A stretch of 64,000 nucleotides of DNA from contig NZ_JAQGJD010000120.1 of NCBI RefSeq assembly GCF_028290785.1, positions 1-64,000 on the forward strand, read 5' to 3'. Shown here piece after piece: positions 2,444 to 60,839 of this stretch (the stretch's first letter is position 1; each line of letters begins with the position of its first letter). Source of the stretch: Tardiphaga sp. (lineage in GTDB: Bacteria > Pseudomonadota > Alphaproteobacteria > Rhizobiales > Xanthobacteraceae). The notes below the pieces were generated by a model. That model ran no database searches. It saw only the letters and a list, made by a program, of their open reading frames with translations, and had not been told where the DNA came from. Both the position numbers and the translations under genes were made by a program.

Positions 2444-3762
2444 AGCGTGCCGGGGACTTCGACAACCGTGGATTCCACCGGCAACGCGCCGCCGCGAATC
2501 CGCAATTCACGCACCGGGTAGGGCACTTTGATGCCTTCGCGCTTGAAGGCGTCCCATAGCGCCAGCATCACGTCGCTTTTCACGGCATCCATGCCATCCG
2601 GCGAGTCGATCCAGAACGTCAGCGCGAACTTCATGCCGGCATCGGCGAATTCAGTGAGCAGGCAGTTCGGCGGCTTCGCCAGGCTGGCGCGCGGCGAGGC
2701 CGCGGCGACTTCGATCGCCAGCTTGCAGACCAGCCGCGGATCGGCGTCGTAGTTGGTGCCGAAATTGACCTTCACCAGCGTGTCCTTGTCGGTGTAGGTC
2801 CAGTTCACCACCTTCTGGGTGATCAGGTCCTCGTTCGGGATCAGGAATTCGCGGCCATCGCCGGCAGCGACGGAGATGTAGCGCGTGTTCATCGCGCTGA
2901 TGCGGCCGGAACTGTCGCCGATGGTGACAAGGTCACCGGGCTTTACCGATTTGTCGGCCAGCAGGATCACGCCGCTGATGAAATTGGCGACGATCTTCTG
3001 CAGGCCAAAACCGATGCCGACGCCGACCGCGCCGGAAAACACTGCCAGCGCCGACAGGTTGATACCCACCGCGCCCATCACCAGCGCGACGGCGAACACC
3101 ATCAGCAGCAGCCGCACCAGCTTGATCAGCAGCACCTGGATCGATGGCGTCAGGTCATGGGTCTGCCGGATGCGGCCCTCGAGGAAATTGCTGGCGAGAT
3201 TCGATAGCCACAGCGCCACAGCCAGTAGCACGCCGAGCTTGATCAGCAGCAGCGGCGTCAGCCGGAGACCGCCGAGATCGATCCCGATCGAATCCAGCAT
3301 CTCGATGGTCGGCTGCAACTGGCCGAGGATGCTCAGCGCGGCAACGAACCAGGCCGAGATCGACACCAGCCGGACGATGAATTCGTTGCGGATGACGCTG
3401 GTGACCAGCCGGATCACCAGCCAGGCCAGCGCCAGCTTGGCGGAAACGGCGAGAAGGTAGCTGCGGCTCGGCCATGTGGAATGCGACATCACGATGCGGG
3501 CGATGATCATGAGCACCGCGAAGGCCACGGTGGACGCGCTGGTGACCAGGATCCGCATCAACAGCCGCAGCGGTCCGGGCCAGCCCATGGCCTGCGATGT
3601 CATGTCGATCCGCGACCGTACGCCCGCGCCGATCGCGAAGGCAAAGCCGGCGCCGATCAGGATCACGCCGAACTGCAGATAGAACCATGGCGACGTCACT
3701 TCCGCCCCGAACGAGCGCGCGGTGGCGAGGGCGAGTTCGTAGGTGTCTTTCAATTCAAGCAT
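2440..3762 (-). CDS. MscS family small-conductance mechanosensitive channel
   Basis: A 440-residue inner-membrane protein with several N-terminal hydrophobic helices, then the MscS pore and beta domain. The pore-lining segment reads [17 protein letters not shown] and is followed by [19 protein letters not shown] and the beta-domain stretch [12 protein letters not shown]. MscS channels open under membrane tension and release solutes during hypo-osmotic shock. It has one or two more predicted helices before the core than E. coli MscS (286 aa), so it belongs to the larger subfamily. ATG 3762 (MLELKD) was chosen; a GTG at 3819 is also open. Its stop overlaps the sfsA start. A cvrA-type antiporter gene is divergent from it. 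Confidence 0.93.
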
Positions 3763-3972
3763 CCGGACGTCTCGTTCTCGCGCTGGCGTCAAATTGATTC
3801 GAATGTGCGGTAGAATCACACAAGCGCCACCCGAGCGCCATCGATGGCCGGTGTTGAAATGTCAGCTTTTAACGGCAATCAGGCCAAATGCAGCTACGGG
3901 CAAAAATCGGTTGGCCTCGCGGGGAGGCGACGATAGAGATGCAGTTGCAAGTATTTATCACTGCGGAGTCTC

Positions 3973-5769
3973 ATGGCCTCACTTGATTCAGTCAGCATCG
4001 CCATCCTTCTTGGCGCCGTTCTGGTGATGGCCGGCATCCTGTCGAGCTTGCTTGCTCTGCGCTTCGGCGCCCCCTTGCTGTTGTTCTTTCTGTTTATCGG
4101 CATGCTGGCCGGCGAGTCCGGGCCCGGTGGGGTCCGTTTCGACGATGTCCACACCACCTATCTGGTCGGCTCGGTCGCGCTGGCGCTGATCCTGTTCGAT
4201 GGCGGGCTGAAAACACGCTTTCAGAGCATCCGCGCCGTGCTGGCGCCCTCCATGGTGCTGGCCACCGCCGGCGTGCTGCTGACCGCGCTGATCACCGCGC
4301 CGGTGGCCAAATATGCCCTCGGCCTGGAGTGGACCGAGGCGATGCTGATCGGCGCCGTGGTGGCTTCGACCGACGCGGCGGCGGTGTTTCTGCTGGTGCA
4401 TGCGCAGGGGCTACGGCTGCGGCCGCGCGTTGGCGCGACGCTGGAAGTGGAATCCGGCACCAACGATCCGTTCGCAGTGTTTCTCACCTTGATGCTGGTG
4501 AAGCTGCTCGCGCTCGGCGGCAGCTCAGCCGGCCATGTGGTGATGGAATTCATCCAGGAAGTGGTGCTGGGCACGCTGATCGGCGTGGTCGGCGGCCGGC
4601 TGGTGGTGCTGCTGCTCAACCGGGTCGCGCTGCCGCAAGGGCTGCACGCGCCGTTCGTCTGCACCGCGGCGCTGGTGATCTTCGGACTGGCGCAGATGTT
4701 TCACGCCTCCGGCTTCCTCGCGGTCTATCTTGCCGGCATCGTCATCGGTAATCGGCCGACCCGCGCGCACAATTCGGTGGTGGCGTTCCTCGACGCCGCC
4801 ACCTGGCTGGCGCAGATCGTGATGTTCGTGCTGCTCGGCCTGCTGGTGTCGCCGCAGCGCCTGGTCGGCAGCATTCTTCCCGCGGTCGCGGTGGCATTCG
4901 TATTGATGCTGGTGGCGCGACCGATCGCCGTCTTCCTGTGCCTGGCGCCGTTCCGCTTCAACTGGCGCGAGAAGGCCTTTGTCGCCTGGGTCGGCCTGCG
5001 TGGTGCGGTGGCGATCTTCCTGGCCTCGATCCCGATGCTGGTCGGGCTGCCCAAGGCCTATCTGTATTTCGACGTCGCCTTCGTCGTCGTCATCATCTCG
5101 CTGCTGCTGCAGGGCTGGACGCTGGCCTTCGCCGCGCGAAAGCTGCACGTCGCGCTGCCGCGCACCGACAAGGGCCCGCGCCGCATCGAGCTCGACTTGC
5201 CGGGCCAGCTCGAGCAGCAGCTGGTGGGCTATTCGGTGCGGCCGAAAAGCCTGTATCTGAAGCGCGGGCTGATCCCGTCGTGGTCGAAGCCGACGCTGGT
5301 GATCCGCAACCAGCGCATCCTGTCGCCTGCCGAGGCCGACCCGGTCGCCGCCGGCGACTACCTCTATCTGCTGGCGCCGCCGGAGAAGGCCGAGTCGCTC
5401 GATCGTTTTTTCGTCGATATGCCGCCCAGCACGGCGCCGGATCCGCATCTGCTCGGCGATTTCGTGGTGTCCGGCGAGATCACGTTGGGTGACCTCGCGG
5501 CGATCTACGGCATCGCCGTCGATCCGGACGAAGCAACGCTGACGCTGGCGGATTATTTCGACGTCCACCTCGATCACGCGCCGACGGTGGGGGCCGCGCT
5601 GCCGGTCGACTCCATCGACCTGGTGGCGCGCAGCCTCGGCGGCGGCCGCGTGAACGTCGTCGGCCTGCGTCTGCCCGAAGATGAAGATGCGGCGCCGCCG
5701 AAGCTGACGCGAAAGCAGTTTGCCAGGCGCAAGCTGTTGAAGGTGTGGAAGTCGTTGTCGGGCGCCTGA
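3973..5769 (+). CDS. CvrA/NhaP2-type potassium (sodium)/proton antiporter
   Basis: A 598-residue CPA1-type antiporter. Residues about 1-400 form a dozen or so membrane helices, including the conserved GAVVASTDAAAVF stretch and ESGTNDPFAVFL, and WVGLRGAVAIFLA late in the membrane domain. The C-terminal cytosolic part (about 400-598) resembles a TrkA-C (RCK-C) domain followed by a CorC/HlyC-type transporter-associated domain, which is the CvrA/NhaP2 architecture. It should exchange cytosolic K+ or Na+ for external H+, helping pH and turgor control. The gene stands alone and is divergent from the MscS channel; the shared osmotic theme may be coincidence. Confidence 0.92.
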   Translation: MASLDSVSIAILLGAVLVMAGILSSLLALRFGAPLLLFFLFIGMLAGESGPGGVRFDDVHTTYLVGSVALALILFDGGLKTRFQSIRAVLAPSMVLATAGVLLTALITAPVAKYALGLEWTEAMLIGAVVASTDAAAVFLLVHAQGLRLRPRVGATLEVESGTNDPFAVFLTLMLVKLLALGGSSAGHVVMEFIQEVVLGTLIGVVGGRLVVLLLNRVALPQGLHAPFVCTAALVIFGLAQMFHASGFLAVYLAGIVIGNRPTRAHNSVVAFLDAATWLAQIVMFVLLGLLVSPQRLVGSILPAVAVAFVLMLVARPIAVFLCLAPFRFNWREKAFVAWVGLRGAVAIFLASIPMLVGLPKAYLYFDVAFVVVIISLLLQGWTLAFAARKLHVALPRTDKGPRRIELDLPGQLEQQLVGYSVRPKSLYLKRGLIPSWSKPTLVIRNQRILSPAEADPVAAGDYLYLLAPPEKAESLDRFFVDMPPSTAPDPHLLGDFVVSGEITLGDLAAIYGIAVDPDEATLTLADYFDVHLDHAPTVGAALPVDSIDLVARSLGGGRVNVVGLRLPEDEDAAPPKLTRKQFARRKLLKVWKSLSGA

Positions 5770-5808
5770 GGATATGGCTTCTCCACGAGAGGTACGGCCT
5801 CTCCACGA

Positions 5809-5926
5809 GTCGTCCCCGCGAATGCGGGGACCCATACCCTCAGGCTTCAAAATAAGAACGCCACTGCTCGCGGCGTTTTAGCCCGAGATCGCGGCGTGTA
5901 TGGGTCCCCGCGTTCGCAGGGACGAC
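5809..5926. repeat. Inverted palindromic repeat pair between cvrA-type gene and modC
   Basis: Two related arms face each other: 5811-5838 begins CGTCCCCGCGAATGCGGGGA and ends near CCCATACC; 5898-5925 carries the inverted form, starting GTATGGGTCCCCGCG and ending CAGGGACGA. Each arm also has a small internal palindrome. The arms flank about 60 bases holding a further GC-rich hairpin. It lies between convergent genes, so it may also stop transcription from both sides. This layout resembles REP/BIME-like repeats of Bradyrhizobiaceae; that family assignment is from memory. Confidence 0.65.
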
Positions 5927-5966
5927 GCCGAGATTGAGGGGCAAGATGAGCTAAACACTTCGGCCG

Positions 5967-6638
5967 TTATGACGCCTGCGGCAACACCTCGACCCCGCCG
6001 AATGCCGCGACACGGCCGCGTTTCAGCATCACCACGCTGGTCGCCAGTTGCCGCATCTCGTCGGCGTCGTGGCTGACATAGACCATCGGAATATCGGCCT
6101 CGTCGCGCAGCCGTACCAGATAGGGCAGGATCTCCGCCTTGCGTTTGTCATCGAGCGCGCCGAGGGGCTCGTCGAGCAGCAGTAGCCGCGGCCGCGACAG
6201 CAGCGCACGCCCCAGTGCCACGCGCTGGCGCTCGCCACCGGACAGCCCGCCGGGCCGCCGCGCCAGCAGGTCGCCGATGTCGAGCAGATCCGTCATGCGG
6301 GTTTCCTGCACGGGATCGCGATCGAGCCGGTTCATCCGCCGGCCGTAATCGAGATTCTGCGCCACGTTGAGATGCGGAAACAGCCGCGCGTCCTGGAAGA
6401 CATAGCCGATCCGGCGGCGATGGGCCGGCACGTGGACGCCGGCTGCGGTATCGTCGAGCACGTCACCATCGATGGCGATGACGCCGCGGTCGGGTTTCAC
6501 CAGACCGGCGATCATCGACACCAGCGACGTCTTGCCGGCGCCGGAGGTGCCAAACAGGCCGGTGACGCGACCCTCGCTGGTGAAAGCGACATCGACCGCG
6601 AACTCGCCGAGCTTCTTGAACACGTCAACGCGCAGCAC
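5967..6638 (-). CDS. modC: Molybdate ABC transporter ATP-binding protein, short form
   Basis: ATPase subunit of the molybdate importer. It has Walker A GTSGAGKT, the Q-loop region IGYVFQDARLFPHLNV, the ABC signature LSGGERQRVALGRALL and Walker B LLLLDEPLGALD, then a switch His in YVSHDADE. From GTG 6638 (MLRVDVFKKL) it is 223 residues; an alternative TTG at 6644 overlaps the modB stop. E. coli ModC has 352 residues, with a C-terminal Mop/TOBE domain that binds molybdate. Here the protein ends soon after the ATPase domain (VLPQAS), so that regulatory domain appears to be missing. A separate Mop protein is encoded upstream in the same cluster at 8811-9017. Confidence 0.93.
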   Translation of the reverse strand: MLRVDVFKKLGEFAVDVAFTSEGRVTGLFGTSGAGKTSLVSMIAGLVKPDRGVIAIDGDVLDDTAAGVHVPAHRRRIGYVFQDARLFPHLNVAQNLDYGRRMNRLDRDPVQETRMTDLLDIGDLLARRPGGLSGGERQRVALGRALLSRPRLLLLDEPLGALDDKRKAEILPYLVRLRDEADIPMVYVSHDADEMRQLATSVVMLKRGRVAAFGGVEVLPQAS

Positions 6639-37004: not shown

Positions 37005-37153
37005 CTTCCCTCTCCCCTTGTGGGAGAGGGTGTCTCAATCGCACGAAGTGTGATTGAGACGGGTGAGGGGTGACCACAAACTTCGCGCTTGCGGTTACCC
37101 CTCATCCGTCTTCGCTTCGCGAAGGCACCTTCTCCCACAAGGGGAGAAGGAAG
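37005..37153. repeat. Dispersed palindromic repeat, family R copy 1
   Basis: About 149 bases with outer inverted ends: CTTCCCTCTCCCCTTGTGGG at the left and CCCACAAGGGGAGAAGGAAG at the right. Inside are ACGGGTGAGGGGT and ACCCCTCATCCG arms, plus a hairpin TCTCAATC/GATTGAGA. Other copies: 43733-43877, 48821-48969, 56935-57076. Lies between convergent genes. Confidence 0.85.
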
Positions 37154-38628: not shown

Positions 38629-41600
38629 TCAATGCGCCTCTTCCCAGTTGTTGGCTGCGCGGGCATCGACTTGCAGCGGCACGTGCAGCAGCACCGCCGG
38701 GAACGGTGCGTCCTGCATGACGTGCTGGACCACCGGCAGCGTCGCCGCCACTTCGTCGTCGGGGACTTCGAAAATCAGTTCGTCGTGAACCTGCAGCAGC
38801 ATTTTCGCCGACAGCTTCTTTTCCGCCAAAGCTTCTTCCATCCGCACCATGGCGCGGCGGATGATGTCGGCGGCGGTGCCCTGCAGACGCGCATTGATCG
38901 CGGCGCGTTCGTTGAAGGCGCGGATCGAGGCGTTCGAGGCCTTGATGTCCGGGTAGTGGCACTTGCGGCCGAACAGGGTTTCCACATAGCCGTTGGCGCG
39001 GCAGAAATCCCGCGTCTGATCCATGTAGGCCCGAATGCCCGGGAAGCGCTCGAAGTATTTCTTGATGTAGGCGCCGGCCTCCTCGCGGGGAATGCTGAGC
39101 TGGTTGGCGAGACCGAACGCCGAGATGCCGTAGATGATGCCGAAATTGATCGCCTTGGCGCGGCGGCGGATGTCAGCCGGCATGTCCTTGACCGGCACGC
39201 CGAACATTTCCGACGCAGTCATCGCGTGGATGTCGATGCCTTCCTGGAACGCGGTGCGCAGCGCCGGGACGTCGGCGACTTCCGACAGCAGCCGCAATTC
39301 GATCTGCGAATAGTCCGCCGATACCAGCTTGTGGCCGGGTGCGGCGATGAAGGCGCGCCTGATCTTGCGGCCGTCCTCGGTGCGCACCGGGATGTTCTGC
39401 AGATTGGGCTCGTTCGACGACAGCCGCCCGGTGGTCGTGGCGGCCAGCGCATACGTCGTGTGGACGCGGTGGGTCTGCGGATGCACGTAATTCGGCAACG
39501 CGTCGGTGTAGGTCGAGCGCAGCTTCGACACCTGCCGCCAGTCGAGAATTTTGCGCGGGAATTCGTGGCCCTGTTCGGCGAGGTCGTCGAGTATCTGCGC
39601 CGAGGTCGACCACGCGCCGGTCTTGGTCTTCGAGCCGCCCGGCAGGCCCATCTTGCCGAACAGGATGTTGCCGAGCTGCTTCGGGCTGCTGATATTGACC
39701 TCTTCGCCGGCGATCTCGCGAATCTCCGCCTCGATGCGCGCCGCGGTCTGCGCGAAATCGGCCGAGAGTTTCGACAGCACCTGGCGGTCGATCGAGATGC
39801 CCCGGCGCTCCATTCGCGCCAGCACGGAGATCAGCGGGCGCTCCAGCGTCTCATAGACGGTGGTCATGTGCTCGGCAGCCAGTCGCGGTTTGAGTACGCG
39901 CCACAGCCGCAGCAATACGTCGGCGTCTTCCGCCGCATAGGCGGTGGCGCGGTCGATGGTGACCTGGTCGAAGGCGATCTTGGCCTTGCCGGAGCCGATC
40001 ACCTCGCCATAGCTCAGCATCTTGTGGCCGAGCCAGATTTCCGCCAGCGCATCGAGGCCATGGGCGTTGCGCCCGGCATCGAGCGCGTAGGACATCAGTT
40101 GCACGTCGTCGGCATCGCGAATGGCAATGCCATGCTGCGCCAGCAGCACCGCGGTGAATTTGATATTGAAGCCGATCTTGAGGAGACCCGGAGATTCGAG
40201 CAGCGGCTTCAGCGCTTCCAGCGCGTCGGCGGCTCGGATCTGGTCGGGCTCCAGCCCCGAGGCGAACAGGCCGGCGGCGTCGCCGGACTGTTTGTGATTC
40301 AGCGGCACGTAGCAGCCGTCATTCGGGCCAAGCGACAGCGCGATGCCGACCAGATCGGCCTGCATCGGATCGATCGACGAGGCTTTCGCTTCGAACGCGA
40401 CATGGCCGGTATCGAGGATGCGGGCGATCCAAGTGTTCAGGTCGGCCAGCGTGCGCACGGGCTTGTAGGCGTCGCGATCGACCGGGAGTTTTCGCGCGGC
40501 GGCGGCGCGGGCGGCGGCAAGCGAGATGGTGGTGAGCTGTTGCTTGGCGCCTTGACCGGTGGTGTGAGCGCTGACGGCGCCGCCATTGCGGGCATTCCCT
40601 CCTCCCTTGCGAGGGAGGGATAGGGATGGGGGTGAGCCCGGAACGCCGGCGTCTGTGGACTCCCCACCGCTGCCCTCCCTCGCAAGGGGAGAGGGAGCAG
40701 AAAGTAGGTCGGCATTCCAGTCACTGCCATCGCGGCGCTTGCCGGCCACGCCGCCTTCGGCCTCCACATCGCTGGGATCGATCTGCGAATATTCCGCGAC
40801 CCGTCGCGTCAGGGTGGAGAACTCCATCGCCTTCAAAAATGCGATCAGCTTTCGCGCGTCGGGCTCGTGCACCGCAAGCTCATCCAGCGGCACATCGAGC
40901 GCCACCTTGTCGTCGAGCAAAACGAGCTGCCGCGAGATTCGCGCTTTCTCGGCGTGTTCGATCAAGGATTCCCGCCGCTTCGGCTGCTTGATCTCGGAGG
41001 CTCGGGCGAGCAGCGTTTCGAGGTCGCCATATTCGTTGATCAGCTGCGCCGCGGTCTTGATGCCGATGCCAGGCACGCCGGGGACGTTATCGACGCTATC
41101 GCCGGCCAGCGCCTGCACCTCGACCACCTTGTTGGGCGGCACGCCGAATTTCTCGATCACCTCGGCAATGCCGAGCCGCCGGTCCTTCATGGTGTCGTAC
41201 ATGACGACGCAATCGGTGACGAGCTGCATCAGGTCCTTGTCGGACGACACGATGGTCGCGGTGGCGCCGCGTTCGCAGGCCTCGCGCACATAGGTGGCGA
41301 TCAGGTCGTCGGCCTCGAAGCCGCCCTGCTCGATGCTCGGCAGGTCGAAGGCGCGCACCGCATCACGGATCAGCGCGAATTGTGGGATCAGGTCGTCCGG
41401 CGCGGGCGGCCGGTGCGCCTTGTATTCCGGATACAGCTTGTTGCGGAACGTCACCTCGGACTTGTCGAAGATGATCGCCAGATGGGTCGGCCGGTTGTCC
41501 GGCGGCATATCGCGCAGCAGCTTCCACAGCATGTTGCAGAAACCGAGCACGGCGTTGACCTGCAACCCGTCCGACTTGCGGGTCAGCGGCGGCAGCGCGT

Positions 41601-41712
41601 GATAGGCGCGGAAGATGTAGGACGAGCCATCGACCAGGAAGACATGGTCGCCCTTCGACAGGGCTTTCACGGTGACGGGCTGGGCGGCGGTTGTTTCGGA
41701 TGTTTTTGGCAT
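38629..41712 (-). CDS. polA: DNA polymerase I with repeat-derived insert and degenerate proofreading site
   Basis: A 1027-residue protein (E. coli PolA has 928). The 5'-3' exonuclease domain (about 20-310) has VDGSSYIFRAYHAL, QGGFEADDLIATY, SSDKDLMQLV and GDSVDNVPGVPGIG. Residues about 339-372 are read from a palindromic repeat (40597-40698). The 3'-5' exonuclease domain (about 420-610) has lost key acids: FEAK (440-443) replaces DxE, and NIKFT with Thr 520 replaces the motif II Asp; YAAEDAD of motif III remains. The polymerase domain is intact (VSADYSQIELRLLS, RRAKAINFGIIYGIS, LQVHDELIFEVP). So it should copy DNA and remove primers, but probably not proofread. Confidence 0.95.
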   Translation of the reverse strand: MPKTSETTAAQPVTVKALSKGDHVFLVDGSSYIFRAYHALPPLTRKSDGLQVNAVLGFCNMLWKLLRDMPPDNRPTHLAIIFDKSEVTFRNKLYPEYKAHRPPAPDDLIPQFALIRDAVRAFDLPSIEQGGFEADDLIATYVREACERGATATIVSSDKDLMQLVTDCVVMYDTMKDRRLGIAEVIEKFGVPPNKVVEVQALAGDSVDNVPGVPGIGIKTAAQLINEYGDLETLLARASEIKQPKRRESLIEHAEKARISRQLVLLDDKVALDVPLDELAVHEPDARKLIAFLKAMEFSTLTRRVAEYSQIDPSDVEAEGGVAGKRRDGSDWNADLLSAPSPLAREGSGGESTDAGVPGSPPSLSLPRKGGGNARNGGAVSAHTTGQGAKQQLTTISLAAARAAAARKLPVDRDAYKPVRTLADLNTWIARILDTGHVAFEAKASSIDPMQADLVGIALSLGPNDGCYVPLNHKQSGDAAGLFASGLEPDQIRAADALEALKPLLESPGLLKIGFNIKFTAVLLAQHGIAIRDADDVQLMSYALDAGRNAHGLDALAEIWLGHKMLSYGEVIGSGKAKIAFDQVTIDRATAYAAEDADVLLRLWRVLKPRLAAEHMTTVYETLERPLISVLARMERRGISIDRQVLSKLSADFAQTAARIEAEIREIAGEEVNISSPKQLGNILFGKMGLPGGSKTKTGAWSTSAQILDDLAEQGHEFPRKILDWRQVSKLRSTYTDALPNYVHPQTHRVHTTYALAATTTGRLSSNEPNLQNIPVRTEDGRKIRRAFIAAPGHKLVSADYSQIELRLLSEVADVPALRTAFQEGIDIHAMTASEMFGVPVKDMPADIRRRAKAINFGIIYGISAFGLANQLSIPREEAGAYIKKYFERFPGIRAYMDQTRDFCRANGYVETLFGRKCHYPDIKASNASIRAFNERAAINARLQGTAADIIRRAMVRMEEALAEKKLSAKMLLQVHDELIFEVPDDEVAATLPVVQHVMQDAPFPAVLLHVPLQVDARAANNWEEAH
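40597..40698. repeat. Palindromic repeat element inside polA, read in frame
   Basis: Left arm CCCTCCTCCCTTGCGAGGGA and right arm TCCCTCGCAAGGGGAGAGGG are near-perfect inverted copies of about 23 bases around a 55-base centre. The arms resemble the ends of the intergenic palindromic repeats of this window in style. The coding strand reads SAPSPLAREGSGGESTDAGV and then PGSPPSLSLPRKGGG without a stop. It lies in the linker between the 5'-3' exonuclease and the 3'-5' exonuclease-like domain. Confidence 0.8.
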
Positions 41713-43543: not shown

Positions 43544-43897
43544 GAGTGTCCCTTTGGCCCGCCCAACCTGTTTTGCGGCATCATCGGGGCGAACGGTTTC
43601 TATTGCCTTTCCGCCATTGAAAAAACTGACGTTCTGATGGGATTGTGATGAACGGTGTGCGCTTTGCCCTGCGGCAGGGCCTGCGCTAAGAACGGTCGGC
43701 TCTGAGAAAGCATTAACTATGGCCTCTTCCTTCCTTCTCCCCTTGTGGGAGAAGGTGGCGCGGACGGAGTCCGCGTCGGATGAGGGGTATTTCCAGGCGC
43801 GGAGCTTGCGGCTACCCCTCACCCGTCTCGACCGCTCCGCGGTCGATCCACCCTCTCCCAGAAGGGGAGAGGGGAAGAACCACGACTGCGAGCGCCC
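43544..43897. other. Gene-free region between acyltransferase and hrpB, with repeat R copy 2
   Basis: These 354 bases hold the divergent promoters of the acyltransferase gene and hrpB. The right half (from 43733) is filled by repeat family R, ending about 20 bases before the hrpB start. I recognise no small gene or RNA in the left half, which contains a few AT-rich patches (GAAAAAACTGACG near 43619) that may be promoter parts. Confidence 0.6.
43733..43877. repeat. Dispersed palindromic repeat, family R copy 2
   Basis: Starts CCTTCTCCCCTTGTGGGAGA and ends CTCCCAGAAGGGGAGAGGGG, with an inner hairpin CGCGGAC-GGA-GTCCGCG and GGATGAGGGGT/ACCCCTCACCC arms. It is close to copy 3 (48821-48969) across its length. 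Confidence 0.85.
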
Positions 43898-46381
43898 TTG
43901 ACCCGCACCTTCGACGCGCCCCTGCCCATCGACGCCGTGCTCGACGACATCGCGCAGGCGTTGGCGACGAACAATGCAGCCGTGCTGGTGGCGCCGCCGG
44001 GCGCCGGCAAGACGACGCGGGTGCCGCTGGCGCTGCTTGATGCGCCATGGCTCGGGCCTAAGAAGATCATCATGCTGGAGCCGCGGCGGATCGCCGCCCG
44101 CGCCAGCGCCGAGCGGATGGCCAGGACGCTGGGAGAACGCGTCGGCGAGACCGTCGGCTACCGCGTTCGCTTCGGTTCGAAAATCTCCCGTAACACCCGC
44201 ATCGAGGTGGTCACCGAGGGCATCTTCTCGCGTCAGATCCTCGACGATCCCGAACTGACCGGGATCGCCGCGGTGCTGTTCGACGAATTCCACGAGCGCT
44301 CGCTCGATGCCGACATGGGGCTGGCACTGGCGCGCGACGCGCAAGTGGGCTTGCGCGAGGACCTGCGCATCCTGGTGATGTCCGCGACCATCGACGGCGC
44401 GCGCGTCGCCAAATTGCTCGGCGACGCGCCGGTGATCGAAAGCCTCGGCCGCGCGTTTCCGGTGGAGACGCGCTATCTCGGCCGCAAGGCGGACGCCCAG
44501 ATCGAGCGGCAGATGGCCGACGCCATTGCCACCGCGCTGCGTGCCGATCCCGGCTCGGTGCTGGCGTTCCTGCCGGGTGCTGCCGAAATCCGTCGCACCC
44601 AGACTTTTCTCGCCGAGCGCATTCATGATGCTTCTATCGAGATCGTACCGTTGTTCGGCGCTCTCGATGCCGCCGTGCAGGATCGCGCCATCCAGCCGGC
44701 GCCCAATGGGCAGCGCAAGGTGGTGCTGGCGACCTCCATCGCCGAGACCTCGCTGACCATCGAAGGCGTGCGCATCGTGGTGGATTGCGGTCTGGCCCGG
44801 GTGCCGCGCTACGAGCCGGATATTGGCCTGACGCGGCTGGAAACCGTGCGCGCTTCGCGGGCGGCGGTCGATCAGCGCCGTGGCCGCGCTGGCCGCACCG
44901 AACCCGGCATCTGCTACCGGCTGTGGGATGAGCCGCAGACCGCGTCGTTGCCGGCCTACACCCAGCCGGAAATTCTCAGTGCGGACCTGTCGTCGCTGGT
45001 GCTGGACCTCGCGCAATGGGGCGTCAGCGACCCCACGCAGCTGGCGTTTCTCGACGCGCCCCCTGCGCCGGCGTTGAAGGAGGCGCGCGGGCTGCTGCGC
45101 GAACTTGGCGCGCTGGACGGCGACGACCGTATCACGTCGGAAGGGCAGGCGCTGCGCGCACTGGCGTTGCCGCCGCGGCTGGCGCGGATGATCGTGGATT
45201 CGCATCGGCTGGGCTACGGCGAGGACGCCGCCGACATCGCGGCAATCCTGACCGAGCGAGGGCTTGGCGGCGACAGCGTCGATCTTGACCATCGCCTCGA
45301 CCAGTATCGCCGCGATCGCTCGCAGCGGGCATCGAGCGCCCGCACGCTGGCGCAGCGCTGGGCTGCGCAGGTCGCCGCGACGGAGACGGGAGCCAGGATA
45401 TCAAACGAGGTGGAGCTCACCACCGGAGTCATGCTGGCTTTCGCATTCCCCGATCGCGTCGCGAAGAACCGCGGCAACGGCAGTTTCGTTTTGGCCAATG
45501 GCCGCGGGGCCGCGGTCGATCGCGCTTCTGCGCTGGCCCGAGAGCCATATATTGCCGTGGCCGAATTGACCGGCACGGCCGCCAACGGCCGCATTTTGCT
45601 GGCGGCGCCGATGGCGCAGTCCGATATCGAGCGGAACTTCGCCGACCAGATCGAGGCCATCGACGAGATCAGCTTCGACAGGCCTTCATCGGCCTTGCGC
45701 GGCCGGCGCAAGCGCACGCTGCACGCCGTCACGTTGTCGGAGGCGCCGTTCACGCTGCAGCCGTCGGCCGAAACCGCGCGGGTGCTGGCCGATGGCTTAG
45801 CGGCCGTTGGGATCGACCGGCTGCCGTGGTCGAAGCCGCTGCAGCAATGGCGCGGCCGGGTGATGTTTTTGCGCGCGGCCGAAGGCGATACGTGGCCTGA
45901 TCTGTCGGACGACGCGCTGGCGACCAGCCGCGAAAGCTGGCTGATGCCTGCGCTGTTCGACAAGCTGTCGCTCCGGGAATTTTCCCCGGGCGACATGTCC
46001 GACGCGCTGATGGGCCTGCTGCCGTGGGACCAGCGCGCGCGATTGGACAAGGAGGCGCCGACCCATTTCGAGGCGCCGACCGGCACGATGCTGGCCATCG
46101 ACTACGAAGCCGAGCAGGGCCCAACCATCGCCGTGCGGCTGCAGGAATTGTTCGGGCTCAACAGCCATCCGTCGGTGGCCCGCGGCACGGTGCCGCTGGT
46201 GCTGGAATTGCTGTCGCCGGCGCACCGCCCGGTGCAGGTGACCCGCGACCTGCCGGGCTTCTGGCGCGGCTCCTACCAGGACGTCCGCTCCGACCTGCGC
46301 GGCCGTTACCCGCGGCATCCCTGGCCCGAGGATCCCGCCAGCGCGTTGCCGACGCGGCGGGTCAAGCCACGGGGGACGTGA
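43898..46381 (+). CDS. hrpB: ATP-dependent helicase HrpB
   Basis: An 827-residue DEAH-family RNA helicase. Motifs: VAPPGAGKTTRVPLALL (I), EPRRIAARASAERMA (Ia), FDEFHERSLDADMGLAL (II, DEFH in place of DEAH), MSATIDGARVA (III), VLATSIAETSLTIEGVRIVVDCG (V) and DQRRGRAGRTEPGICYRLW (VI). A C-terminal HrpB-specific region ends with RGSYQDVRSDLRGRYPRHPWPEDP. The role of HrpB in bacteria is poorly known; some members affect pathogenicity or RNA processing. The start is TTG 43898; no ATG is better placed, and the N-terminus TFDAPLPIDAVLDDIAQAL fits the family. Confidence 0.94.
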   Translation: MTRTFDAPLPIDAVLDDIAQALATNNAAVLVAPPGAGKTTRVPLALLDAPWLGPKKIIMLEPRRIAARASAERMARTLGERVGETVGYRVRFGSKISRNTRIEVVTEGIFSRQILDDPELTGIAAVLFDEFHERSLDADMGLALARDAQVGLREDLRILVMSATIDGARVAKLLGDAPVIESLGRAFPVETRYLGRKADAQIERQMADAIATALRADPGSVLAFLPGAAEIRRTQTFLAERIHDASIEIVPLFGALDAAVQDRAIQPAPNGQRKVVLATSIAETSLTIEGVRIVVDCGLARVPRYEPDIGLTRLETVRASRAAVDQRRGRAGRTEPGICYRLWDEPQTASLPAYTQPEILSADLSSLVLDLAQWGVSDPTQLAFLDAPPAPALKEARGLLRELGALDGDDRITSEGQALRALALPPRLARMIVDSHRLGYGEDAADIAAILTERGLGGDSVDLDHRLDQYRRDRSQRASSARTLAQRWAAQVAATETGARISNEVELTTGVMLAFAFPDRVAKNRGNGSFVLANGRGAAVDRASALAREPYIAVAELTGTAANGRILLAAPMAQSDIERNFADQIEAIDEISFDRPSSALRGRRKRTLHAVTLSEAPFTLQPSAETARVLADGLAAVGIDRLPWSKPLQQWRGRVMFLRAAEGDTWPDLSDDALATSRESWLMPALFDKLSLREFSPGDMSDALMGLLPWDQRARLDKEAPTHFEAPTGTMLAIDYEAEQGPTIAVRLQELFGLNSHPSVARGTVPLVLELLSPAHRPVQVTRDLPGFWRGSYQDVRSDLRGRYPRHPWPEDPASALPTRRVKPRGT

Positions 46382-48794: not shown

Positions 48795-48820
48795 GTTCAA
48801 TCTCGGGTGGAGGCTCTGCC

Positions 48821-48969
48821 TTCCTTCTCCCTTTGTGGGAGAAGGTGGCGCGGACGAAGTCCGCGACGGATGAGGGGTATCTTCAAGCTCGGAGTTTGTG
48901 GCTACCCCTCACCCGTCTCGAACCGCTACGCGGTCCGATCCACCCTCGCCCACAAGGGGAGAGGGGAAG
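48821..48969. repeat. Dispersed palindromic repeat, family R copy 3
   Basis: Starts TTCCTTCTCCCTTTGTGGGA and ends CCCACAAGGGGAGAGGGGAA, with the inner hairpin CGCGGAC-GAA-GTCCGCG and GATGAGGGGT/ACCCCTCACC arms. It lies between convergent genes and is most similar to copy 2. Confidence 0.85.
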
Positions 48970-48974
48970 AAGAG

Positions 48975-49484
48975 CTACGCCGCCGGCATCGGCGGCACCG
49001 GCAATGCCGTTACCGATTTGATCTTCTCCATCGCAAACCGCGACGTCACGTTCTTCAGCGCCACCGCGCTGATCAGTTTCTTGTAGAACACGTCGTAGCT
49101 CTGCATGTCGGCAACCACCACGCGCAGCATGTAATCGACGTCGCCCGCCATGCGGTAGAATTCCATCACCTCGGGCATCGCGCTGACGGCGTCGGCGAAT
49201 TTCTTTAGCCAGGCGTCGGAGTGGTCGCCGCTTTCCACCGAAACGAACACCGAGATTCCGAGCCCGATCTTGTTCTGATCGACCAGCGCCACCCGGCGCA
49301 GGATCACGCCATCGGCCTCCAACCGCTGGATCCGCTTCCAGCACGGCGTCGAGGACAGCCCGACCCGGTCGCCGATTTCGGCGACTGACAACGAAGCGTC
49401 TTCCTGCAATACCGTTAGGATTTTGCGATCGATGGCATCGAGGCGGCGGGAGGGTTCAACGGTCAGGTCGGCGGCGTCAGACAT
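48975..49484 (-). CDS. Lrp/AsnC family transcriptional regulator
   Basis: A 169-residue regulator. N-terminal helix-turn-helix: LDAIDRKILTVLQEDASLSVAEIGDRVGLSSTPCWKRIQRLEADGVI; C-terminal RAM (ligand-binding) domain with VFVSVESGDHSDAWLKKF and MPEVMEFYRMAGDVDYMLRVVVADM. Such proteins form octamers and sense amino acids. The N-terminal tail carries about ten extra residues. An 8-bp inverted repeat at 49494-49535, just before the ATG, suggests self-regulation. It is downstream of pfkB on the same strand with an 85-base gap. Confidence 0.94.
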   Translation of the reverse strand: MSDAADLTVEPSRRLDAIDRKILTVLQEDASLSVAEIGDRVGLSSTPCWKRIQRLEADGVILRRVALVDQNKIGLGISVFVSVESGDHSDAWLKKFADAVSAMPEVMEFYRMAGDVDYMLRVVVADMQSYDVFYKKLISAVALKNVTSRFAMEKIKSVTALPVPPMPAA

Positions 49485-52032: not shown

Positions 52033-52127
52033 GGAGATTGGCGGTGGACGAGCCACTAGCCAATCGGGTCATGTCCGGAAGGAAGCAGCCCTAACGAGAT
52101 CCGGATCGGGTCGCTCGTCAGTCTCCT
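52033..52127 (+). ncRNA. ffs: Signal recognition particle RNA, small bacterial (4.5S) type
   Basis: The conserved domain IV core GTCCGGAAGGAAGCAGCC lies at 52073-52090, the Ffh-binding loop with GGAA tetraloop. The flanks GGAGATTGGCGGTGG at the start and CGTCAGTCTCC at the end pair to close the long hairpin, with the usual inner bulges. Length about 95 bases is normal for Alphaproteobacteria. The ends are estimated from pairing. It lies just upstream of dnaX, the usual order in this group, and works with Ffh to target membrane proteins. Confidence 0.9.
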
Positions 52128-52266
52128 ACTTGTTTTGTCGAGCGAATTCAGTGCTCTGCTCGACGCGAAGACCCGCTTTTCAGGCAGGATCCGGTTTCCG
52201 TCCCGTCCGAAGATGCGCCGTTGTTCCGCAATCGGCTTCACGAGGCAACACATTGCGGATGAAACG

Positions 52267-56934: not shown

Positions 56935-57076
56935 TCCTTCCCCTCTCCCCTTGTGGGAGGTGGCCGCGCGCCAGCGCGGCCGGGTGAAGGGTAGCCACAA
57001 GTACCGAGCCCGGCAGTACCCCTCATCCGTCGCGGACTTTGTCAGCGCCACCTTCTCCCACAAGGGGAGAAGGGAA
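56935..57076. repeat. Dispersed palindromic repeat, family R copy 4
   Basis: Starts TCCTTCCCCTCTCCCCTTGT and ends TTCTCCCACAAGGGGAGAAG, with a hairpin GGCCGCGCG-CCA-GCGCGGCC inside (57 bases from the left) and TACCCCTCATCCGTCGCGGA. It sits between ampG-like and rmuC, both on the minus strand. Confidence 0.85.
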
Positions 57077-57101
57077 GAACGCGGGCGGCATGGACGGTGC
57101 T

Positions 57102-60787: not shown

Positions 60788-60839
60788 CGTCATTGCGAGG
60801 TCAGGGAAAGCCTTGGCTTTCCCTGACCTCGCAATGACG
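60788..60839. terminator. Perfect 25-bp palindrome between truA and the nucleosidase gene
   Basis: Arms CGTCATTGCGAGGTCAGGGA... and its exact inverse (60788-60812 and 60815-60839) with a TT loop lie between two convergent genes. It is likely to stop transcription from both sides. No U-run follows, and the GTCATTGCGAG end recalls a dispersed repeat in this family. Confidence 0.65.

Follow-up and report, generated by a model that had tools for sequence, protein, structure and literature searches.

Palindromic elements (RPEs) have been described within Rickettsia proteins, where they are tolerated in guanylate kinase (PMC2229807), and the sites of RPE-4, -6 and -7 are reported to hold different RPE groups (PMC3767692). 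REPs have been found inside the genes for DNA polymerase I, excinuclease (Uvr), RecBCD, helicase and other repair proteins of several species, at about the same site in recB of two Xanthomonas, and chance was doubted as the cause; the CGTC REP is characterized there by a terminal CGTC (or TGTC, CCTC), a stem of 8-9 bp beginning with AT, a loop of 4-5 nt and a CCA tail (PMC3733652). Here we analyze a palindromic element within polA, located in a 64,000-nucleotide stretch of Tardiphaga sp. DNA (the window), together with its counterparts in related genomes, where two further genes are involved: hrpB (TIGR01970) and the gene of the ligase-associated DNA damage response DEXH helicase (TIGR04121), referred to as lhr. 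As in the case of RPEs and Wolbachia palindromic elements, palindromes of 100-150 bp occur here both between genes and in frame in conserved proteins (PMC3767692, PMC2229807), and as with RPEs, different groups occupy orthologous sites (PMC3767692). Unlike in RPEs, the hosts are free-living, GC-rich Hyphomicrobiales, and three recognisable genes are concerned, each of them in several genera or species. With the GTAG- and CGTC-tagged REPs the elements share a mostly intergenic location, the commonness of dimers and in-gene cases that include DNA polymerase I, the CGTC type being described in that survey as having no associated transposase (PMC3733652), but the element of the window is longer, two-armed and, judged by eye, has no evident CGTC tag, which places it outside the CGTC REP description. 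The Br-REP1 and Br-REP2 repeats of Bradyrhizobium are likewise palindromic intergenic repeats of related bacteria; they differ in their printed consensus and are described in intergenic regions and 3'-UTRs (PMC5082802). The enterobacterial RU-1, RU-2 and RU-3 and the short Correia element resemble our case as small repeats with open frames fused to genes, and differ in their termini and hosts (PMC2229807). Thus, the kind of event is already known, from RPEs and from REPs in DNA polymerase I (PMC3733652). What appears to be new is that different repeats recur at the same three sites from genus to genus within one order: we did not find one site with different repeats across many genera described in PMC3733652, its gene list (Additional file 3) aside, and a search of mainly open-access literature returned no description of such captures in these three genes of Hyphomicrobiales.

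The polA frame of the window is open throughout (41712..38629, minus strand). A sequence-only reading of this DNA had reported in it two inverted arms of about 23 bases around a centre of about 55 bases, translated as part of the protein. The arms are real, with 24 nt each, 92% complementarity and a spacing of 53 nt, and the element is read through in frame as residues about 339-373 (Table 1). The same reading had located the insert between domains, which agrees with our analysis: the insert falls in the interdomain linker, because the Pfam match to the C-terminal domain of the 5'-3' exonuclease ends at residue 286 and the region homologous to the Klenow fragment of E. coli starts at residue 414. 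This linker is predicted to be disordered, with pLDDT <50 and no secondary structure for residues 322-392 in an AlphaFold2 model calculated from an alignment of 22 proteins. P, G, S and R are frequent in the captured peptide. PolA of E. coli has 928 aa, and some Rickettsia PolA proteins reportedly carry an RPE; no RPE-named NCBIfam entry matched the PolA of the window at E<=0.001, in a comparison with protein families rather than with RPE sequences.

Table 1. Coordinates in the window of polA, its palindromic element and related features
Feature	Position	Strand	Basis
polA, DNA polymerase I, 1027 aa	38629..41712	-	TIGR00593 and NF004397, above cut-off
Captured palindromic element, in-frame residues about 339-373	40596..40696	-	arms, own-genome search, genus comparison, fold
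Arm 1, 24 nt	40596..40619	+	inverted-repeat detection
Stretch separating the arms, 53 nt	40620..40672	.	inverted-repeat detection, printed copies
Arm 2, 24 nt	40673..40696	+	inverted repeat, own-genome matches
Interdomain linker, residues 322-392, pLDDT <50	40537..40749	-	structure prediction
Empty site in hrpB (43898-46381), with full in-frame element there in G003, G004, G007	about 45389..45418	+	hrpB comparison
Related palindromic repeat, side frames differ	37005..37153	.	own-genome search, inverted-repeat scan, codon score
Palindromic repeat with similar arm sequence, just upstream of hrpB, side frames differ	43736..43870	.	scan, codon score
Related palindromic repeat, side frames differ	48813..48975	.	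own-genome search, inverted-repeat scan, codon score
Palindromic repeat with similar arm sequence, flanks in same frame with a stop between	56937..57077	.	scan, codon score

Folded as RNA, the coding strand of the element forms one long hairpin of -72.3 kcal/mol; 200 dinucleotide shuffles gave -48.5 +/- 4.1 kcal/mol and none equalled it (z -5.9), and the other strand folded as DNA yields a z of -4.3. A GC-rich linker of low complexity could appear palindromic by chance, all the more as P, G, S and A abound in these linkers, and codon shuffles of the own linker still reach an average inverted-repeat score of 8.3. The actual score, however, is 18, a value attained by none of 60 such shuffles, while the highest scores in three 64-kb windows simulated with a first-order Markov model were 13, 12 and 12, and similar repeats exist elsewhere in the genome. 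Based on the fold z-scores, the codon shuffles, the simulated windows and the genomic copies we reject a chance palindrome, which we regard as extremely improbable. In the whole window eight inverted repeats score at least 16, and four of them outscore the one in polA (20 to 25); according to a home-made codon-usage score, the polA element is the only one of the eight that has a single open coding frame on both sides. Strong inverted repeats at 60788-60839 and 5809-5926, starting with CGTCATTGCGAGG and GTCGTCCCCGCGAATGCGGGGACCCA, respectively, resemble CGTC-tagged REPs, and the coding frames on their two sides differ. A known structured RNA at the polA site was rejected as well: the sole match in an Rfam scan of the window (gathering thresholds) is the small bacterial SRP RNA (RF00169) at 52033-52129.

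The sequence-only reading had likened the arms to intergenic repeats of this genome and suggested a search for further copies. Such copies are numerous. With the element as query (E<=10), the own genome, assembled in 423 contigs, returned 42 rows, which comprise self-matches in both strands, two copies of nearly full length (L003, L004), 32 rows that match the right arm (arm 2) alone and six short central matches; viewed with their flanks, the copies show hairpin arms that enclose an inner palindrome and a centre that varies. In G007, a congener assembled as a single contig, 64 rows (E<=0.001) merged to 39 places. At 33 of these the frames on the two sides differ, at three the frame is the same with a stop in between, and only three, namely those in polA, hrpB and lhr, lie in one open frame; 36 of the 39 are thus outside an open coding frame, i.e. 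the palindrome resides mostly between genes. This classification relies on the codon score, a heuristic trained on polA and hrpB; with a stricter cut-off it flags the polA copy alone, the hrpB and lhr copies being identified by homology. Among 17 fuller G007 copies that we examined, 14 are intergenic. The frame that codes for SPLAGEG is readable in 11 intergenic copies; in eight of these a particular inner position is occupied by a stop codon (TAG or TAA), and none of the three in-gene copies has a stop there. Several G007 copies end in GCTCCC...GGGAGC, which by eye constitute terminal inverted repeats as in MITEs, and no target-site duplication was evident by eye in the G007 copies. In the comparison with GTAG REPs we noted that in several of them one arm carries GGGGGTAG at its inner end. 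The RAYT-type transposase domain Y1_Tnp (PF01797) was found in one of the 18 genomes of the genus.

Analysis of the polA linker in Tardiphaga, a genus of the Nitrobacteraceae, revealed a patchy distribution of the element. Among the 18 genomes of the genus set the linker is readable in 17 (in G006 the gene is split over contigs), and its state, called by eye, is full, with both arms, in six (own, G007, G012, G004, G010, G011), partial, with only the right part or a remnant, in two (G013, G009), and ordinary, with no element, in nine (G001, G002, G003, G005, G008, G014, G015, G016, G017). All eight inserts are in frame. Hence, polA carries in a conserved protein an in-frame copy that is absent from some orthologues, which is how protein-coding palindromic elements are recognized. 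Presence and absence among relatives, which the sequence-only reading had proposed to check, is therefore confirmed, but the clean borders to be looked for in that check are not readable: the flanks diverge, and neither exact borders nor a target-site duplication could be discerned at the captures. An assembly artefact was rejected, as the same kind of element occurs in polA of other genomes, including the single-contig G007. On a polA tree calculated without the linker we counted at least four state changes among the genus rows and six when six outgroup rows were included, counts in which gain and loss are not distinguishable; one outgroup row, L063 (Rhodopseudomonas infernalis), is placed beside G011.

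The polA captures are not all independent, because the flank GKRRDGSDWNA is common to own, G007 and G012 and missing in G016, the sister of G012, and because the linkers of G004 and G012 (L034 and L042), members of different subclades, contain in the right arm an identical nested mini-hairpin coding for RLAELRSARGGG, which points either to recombination at polA or to an old copy common to both. Both features would fit a scenario in which the element was captured once, in an ancestor of these genera, and subsequently underwent gene conversion with intergenic copies and many losses. In that case, however, the linkers of the genus that are free of the element would hardly be expected to retain homologous sequence of the GGDLFG type, as they do. 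We consider a single ancient capture unlikely, also in view of the linkers and helicase genes described below.

To the 17 linkers from the genus search we added those of 80 named genomes, two of which duplicate genus members. Thirteen full and four half elements were called by eye among these 97 linkers. When the best inverted repeat of each linker was compared to 60 codon shuffles, 11 linkers beat all of them, namely 10 of the 13 full elements and L130, which had not been called by eye. The scores of the remaining full elements were reached by one (L121), two (L135) and 34 (L077) shuffles, and none of the four half elements exceeded all shuffles (L063 was reached by three, G009 by five, G013 and L116 by 30 each); the score of L119, likewise not called by eye, was reached by a single one. 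The home-genome search for copies was extended outside the genus for two inserts, L121 and L098. L121, from a Pseudolabrys MAG (polA at 3001-5979), holds in its linker a hairpin pair, TGTC-ATGGCCGGG-CTTGA-CCCGGCCAT-CCA, that codes for VMAGLDPAIH...MDPQVKPGGD and fits the CGTC REP as described in PMC3733652 (TGTC, ATGGCCGGG stem, CTTGA loop, CCA). This insert finds 61 matches in its own genome, mostly single arms, and is different in kind from the Tardiphaga repeat; occupation of the PolA site by such a distinct repeat is at odds with descent of all inserts from one ancient capture. L098, on the other hand, contains a longer element, for which the home genome gives 24 matches including the element itself, and judging from the likeness of the arms it may be a relative of the Tardiphaga one.

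Many polA linkers of Hyphomicrobiales contain a D-L-F motif (GGDLFG and similar), and two (L129 and L133) contain QGQLPLV; both appear to resemble sliding-clamp-binding peptides. The pattern [DGEN]LF is found in 31 of the 80 linkers without an element. In Tardiphaga D-L-F is present in all nine element-free linkers and in one of the six full captures, with the other five lacking it. In six linkers (G004, L072, L077, L098, L117 and G100) the motif lies between two arms, and its occurrence there in distant lineages speaks for an old capture. A D-L-F bracketed by arms is not what one would expect if a whole element had been inserted; such an arrangement could come about by insertion of halves on either side of the motif or by regrowth of the motif in the centre. 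We read L063 and G009 as single halves located after the motif. In one lhr linker (L341, from G070) a repeat-like insert codes for GGDLF near its centre. D-L-F may itself be partly derived from the centres of the repeats.

The genome search suggested by the sequence-only reading extended to other genes, and it is in the two helicases that further copies were found. A1, a profile of the insert peptide built from eight peptides (two of them edited), was run against the 18 genus genomes and led, among the matches listed, to hrpB and lhr; of 20 matches inspected, selected for a long frame or on other grounds, the ones not in polA, hrpB or lhr had the appearance of intergenic copies under spurious frames. 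The hrpB site is readable in 13 of the 18 genomes, with states again called by eye: the insert is full and in frame in G003, G004 and G007, full at a frame break in G001 (L202), partial in G016, G008, G009 and G010 (in the last of these the frame is lost further on), and missing from own, G013, G015 and G017. In G006 its left part is followed by the contig end, and in hrpB of G064 the contig ends before the far side of the insert. The lhr gene was found in 17 of the 18 genomes, with a full insert in eight (in frame in G003, G004, G006, G007, G012, G016 and G017, at a frame break in G015, L216), one hairpin at a frame break in one (G009, L224) and no insert in eight. The lhr inserts of the genus belong to at least two repeat families, and their distribution implies at least four state changes if any insert is counted and seven if families are counted separately. 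Two families beside empty sites in one gene of one genus are likewise difficult to derive from one ancient capture. Breaks of the frame at the insert are confined to three helicase genes (G001 hrpB, G009 lhr and G015 lhr), with none seen at polA inserts; they may be real or may reflect slippage or sequencing errors in runs of C. The frame filter therefore looks strict in polA and less so in the two helicases.

In the family as a whole, 103 of 119 genomes have an lhr match. We fetched 40 of these genes, mostly for a split or long match, and the site is readable in 33, which together with the 17 from the genus gives 50 linkers. In 23 of the 50, representing 12 genera including Tardiphaga, the inverted-repeat score was reached by at most one of 100 codon shuffles, a proportion that is based on linker sequences alone and is not a frequency, since long linkers were favoured in the selection. 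For the full lhr insert of G007, 13 of 100 shuffles attained its score. With a profile built for the second repeat family we obtained 98 rows in the genus, three of them in lhr, and of 20 places outside lhr that we fetched, 19 could be classified, none of them in an open coding frame. The A1 profile searched against the 119 genomes at E<=1e-9 (up to 63 candidates scored per genome) gave at least 28 rows in 15 genomes, and the rows that could be assigned to a recognisable gene are in polA (own, G004, G024, G068, G100), hrpB (G003, G004, G046 and, to the contig end, G064) and lhr (G004). L404, L410 and L413 are unrecognised frames that end near the element. Both profiles favour the frames from which they were built, so genes with copies in other frames can be missed.

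It is very likely, in our opinion, that a palindromic repeat of roughly 100-150 bp, dispersed in the intergenic regions of these Hyphomicrobiales, entered the interdomain linker of PolA and became translated, that different repeats recur in tolerant loops, and that for Pol I the insert is most probably neutral or nearly neutral. We read the locus as a capture because of the DNA similarity to intergenic copies, the presence and absence within the genus, the open frame and the predicted disorder of the linker. The proposal of the sequence-only reading that a mobile intergenic repeat had become coding is thereby supported, with the qualification that this is one of several captures at the site and that two more genes possess such a site. 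Mechanistically, the repeats would insert widely across the genome, and a copy landing in polA would survive only if the frame was kept, no in-frame stop was introduced and the peptide spared the fold. A filter composed of length, stop codons and protein tolerance would then leave insertions in a few permissive loops. Those of PolA, HrpB and the ligase-associated helicase would tolerate inserts, so that different repeats are found there repeatedly. The captured PolA peptide itself is probably harmless.

One may ask whether the inserts are instead selected, with the mRNA hairpin or the peptide changing Pol I, e.g. by pausing between domains, by contact with the clamp or through fidelity. The products of all recognisable target genes, namely PolA, HrpB and the ligase-associated DNA damage response helicase, are enzymes of DNA or RNA, the message contains a hairpin of -72 kcal/mol, and the same leaning is reported from other bacteria, with an effect suspected for the repair genes that carry REPs (PMC3733652). 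However, nine of 17 genus genomes do without the element, the inserts occur whole, halved or replaced, three of those in helicases break the frame, and the linker is predicted to be disordered, so that we regard selection as improbable. A bolder variant, which we also hold to be rather doubtful, is that the loops in PolA, HrpB and the ligase-associated helicase are landing sites where segments from active palindromic repeats are put to use, and that in PolA the repeat replaces or brackets the clamp-peptide-like D-L-F, rewiring the tethering of Pol I at sites of replication and repair.

Capture of neutral or nearly neutral repeats, which we prefer, provides an example outside obligate intracellular bacteria of intergenic repeats turning into protein sequence. 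Filled and empty sites coexist within one genus, and different repeats have been captured at the same place in other genera. Insertion variants of Pol I and two helicases are thereby available from nature, and the question raised by the 2013 REP survey, whether the occurrence of repeats in DNA polymerase I and repair genes reflects chance and tolerance or selection, becomes testable with natural pairs of enzymes.
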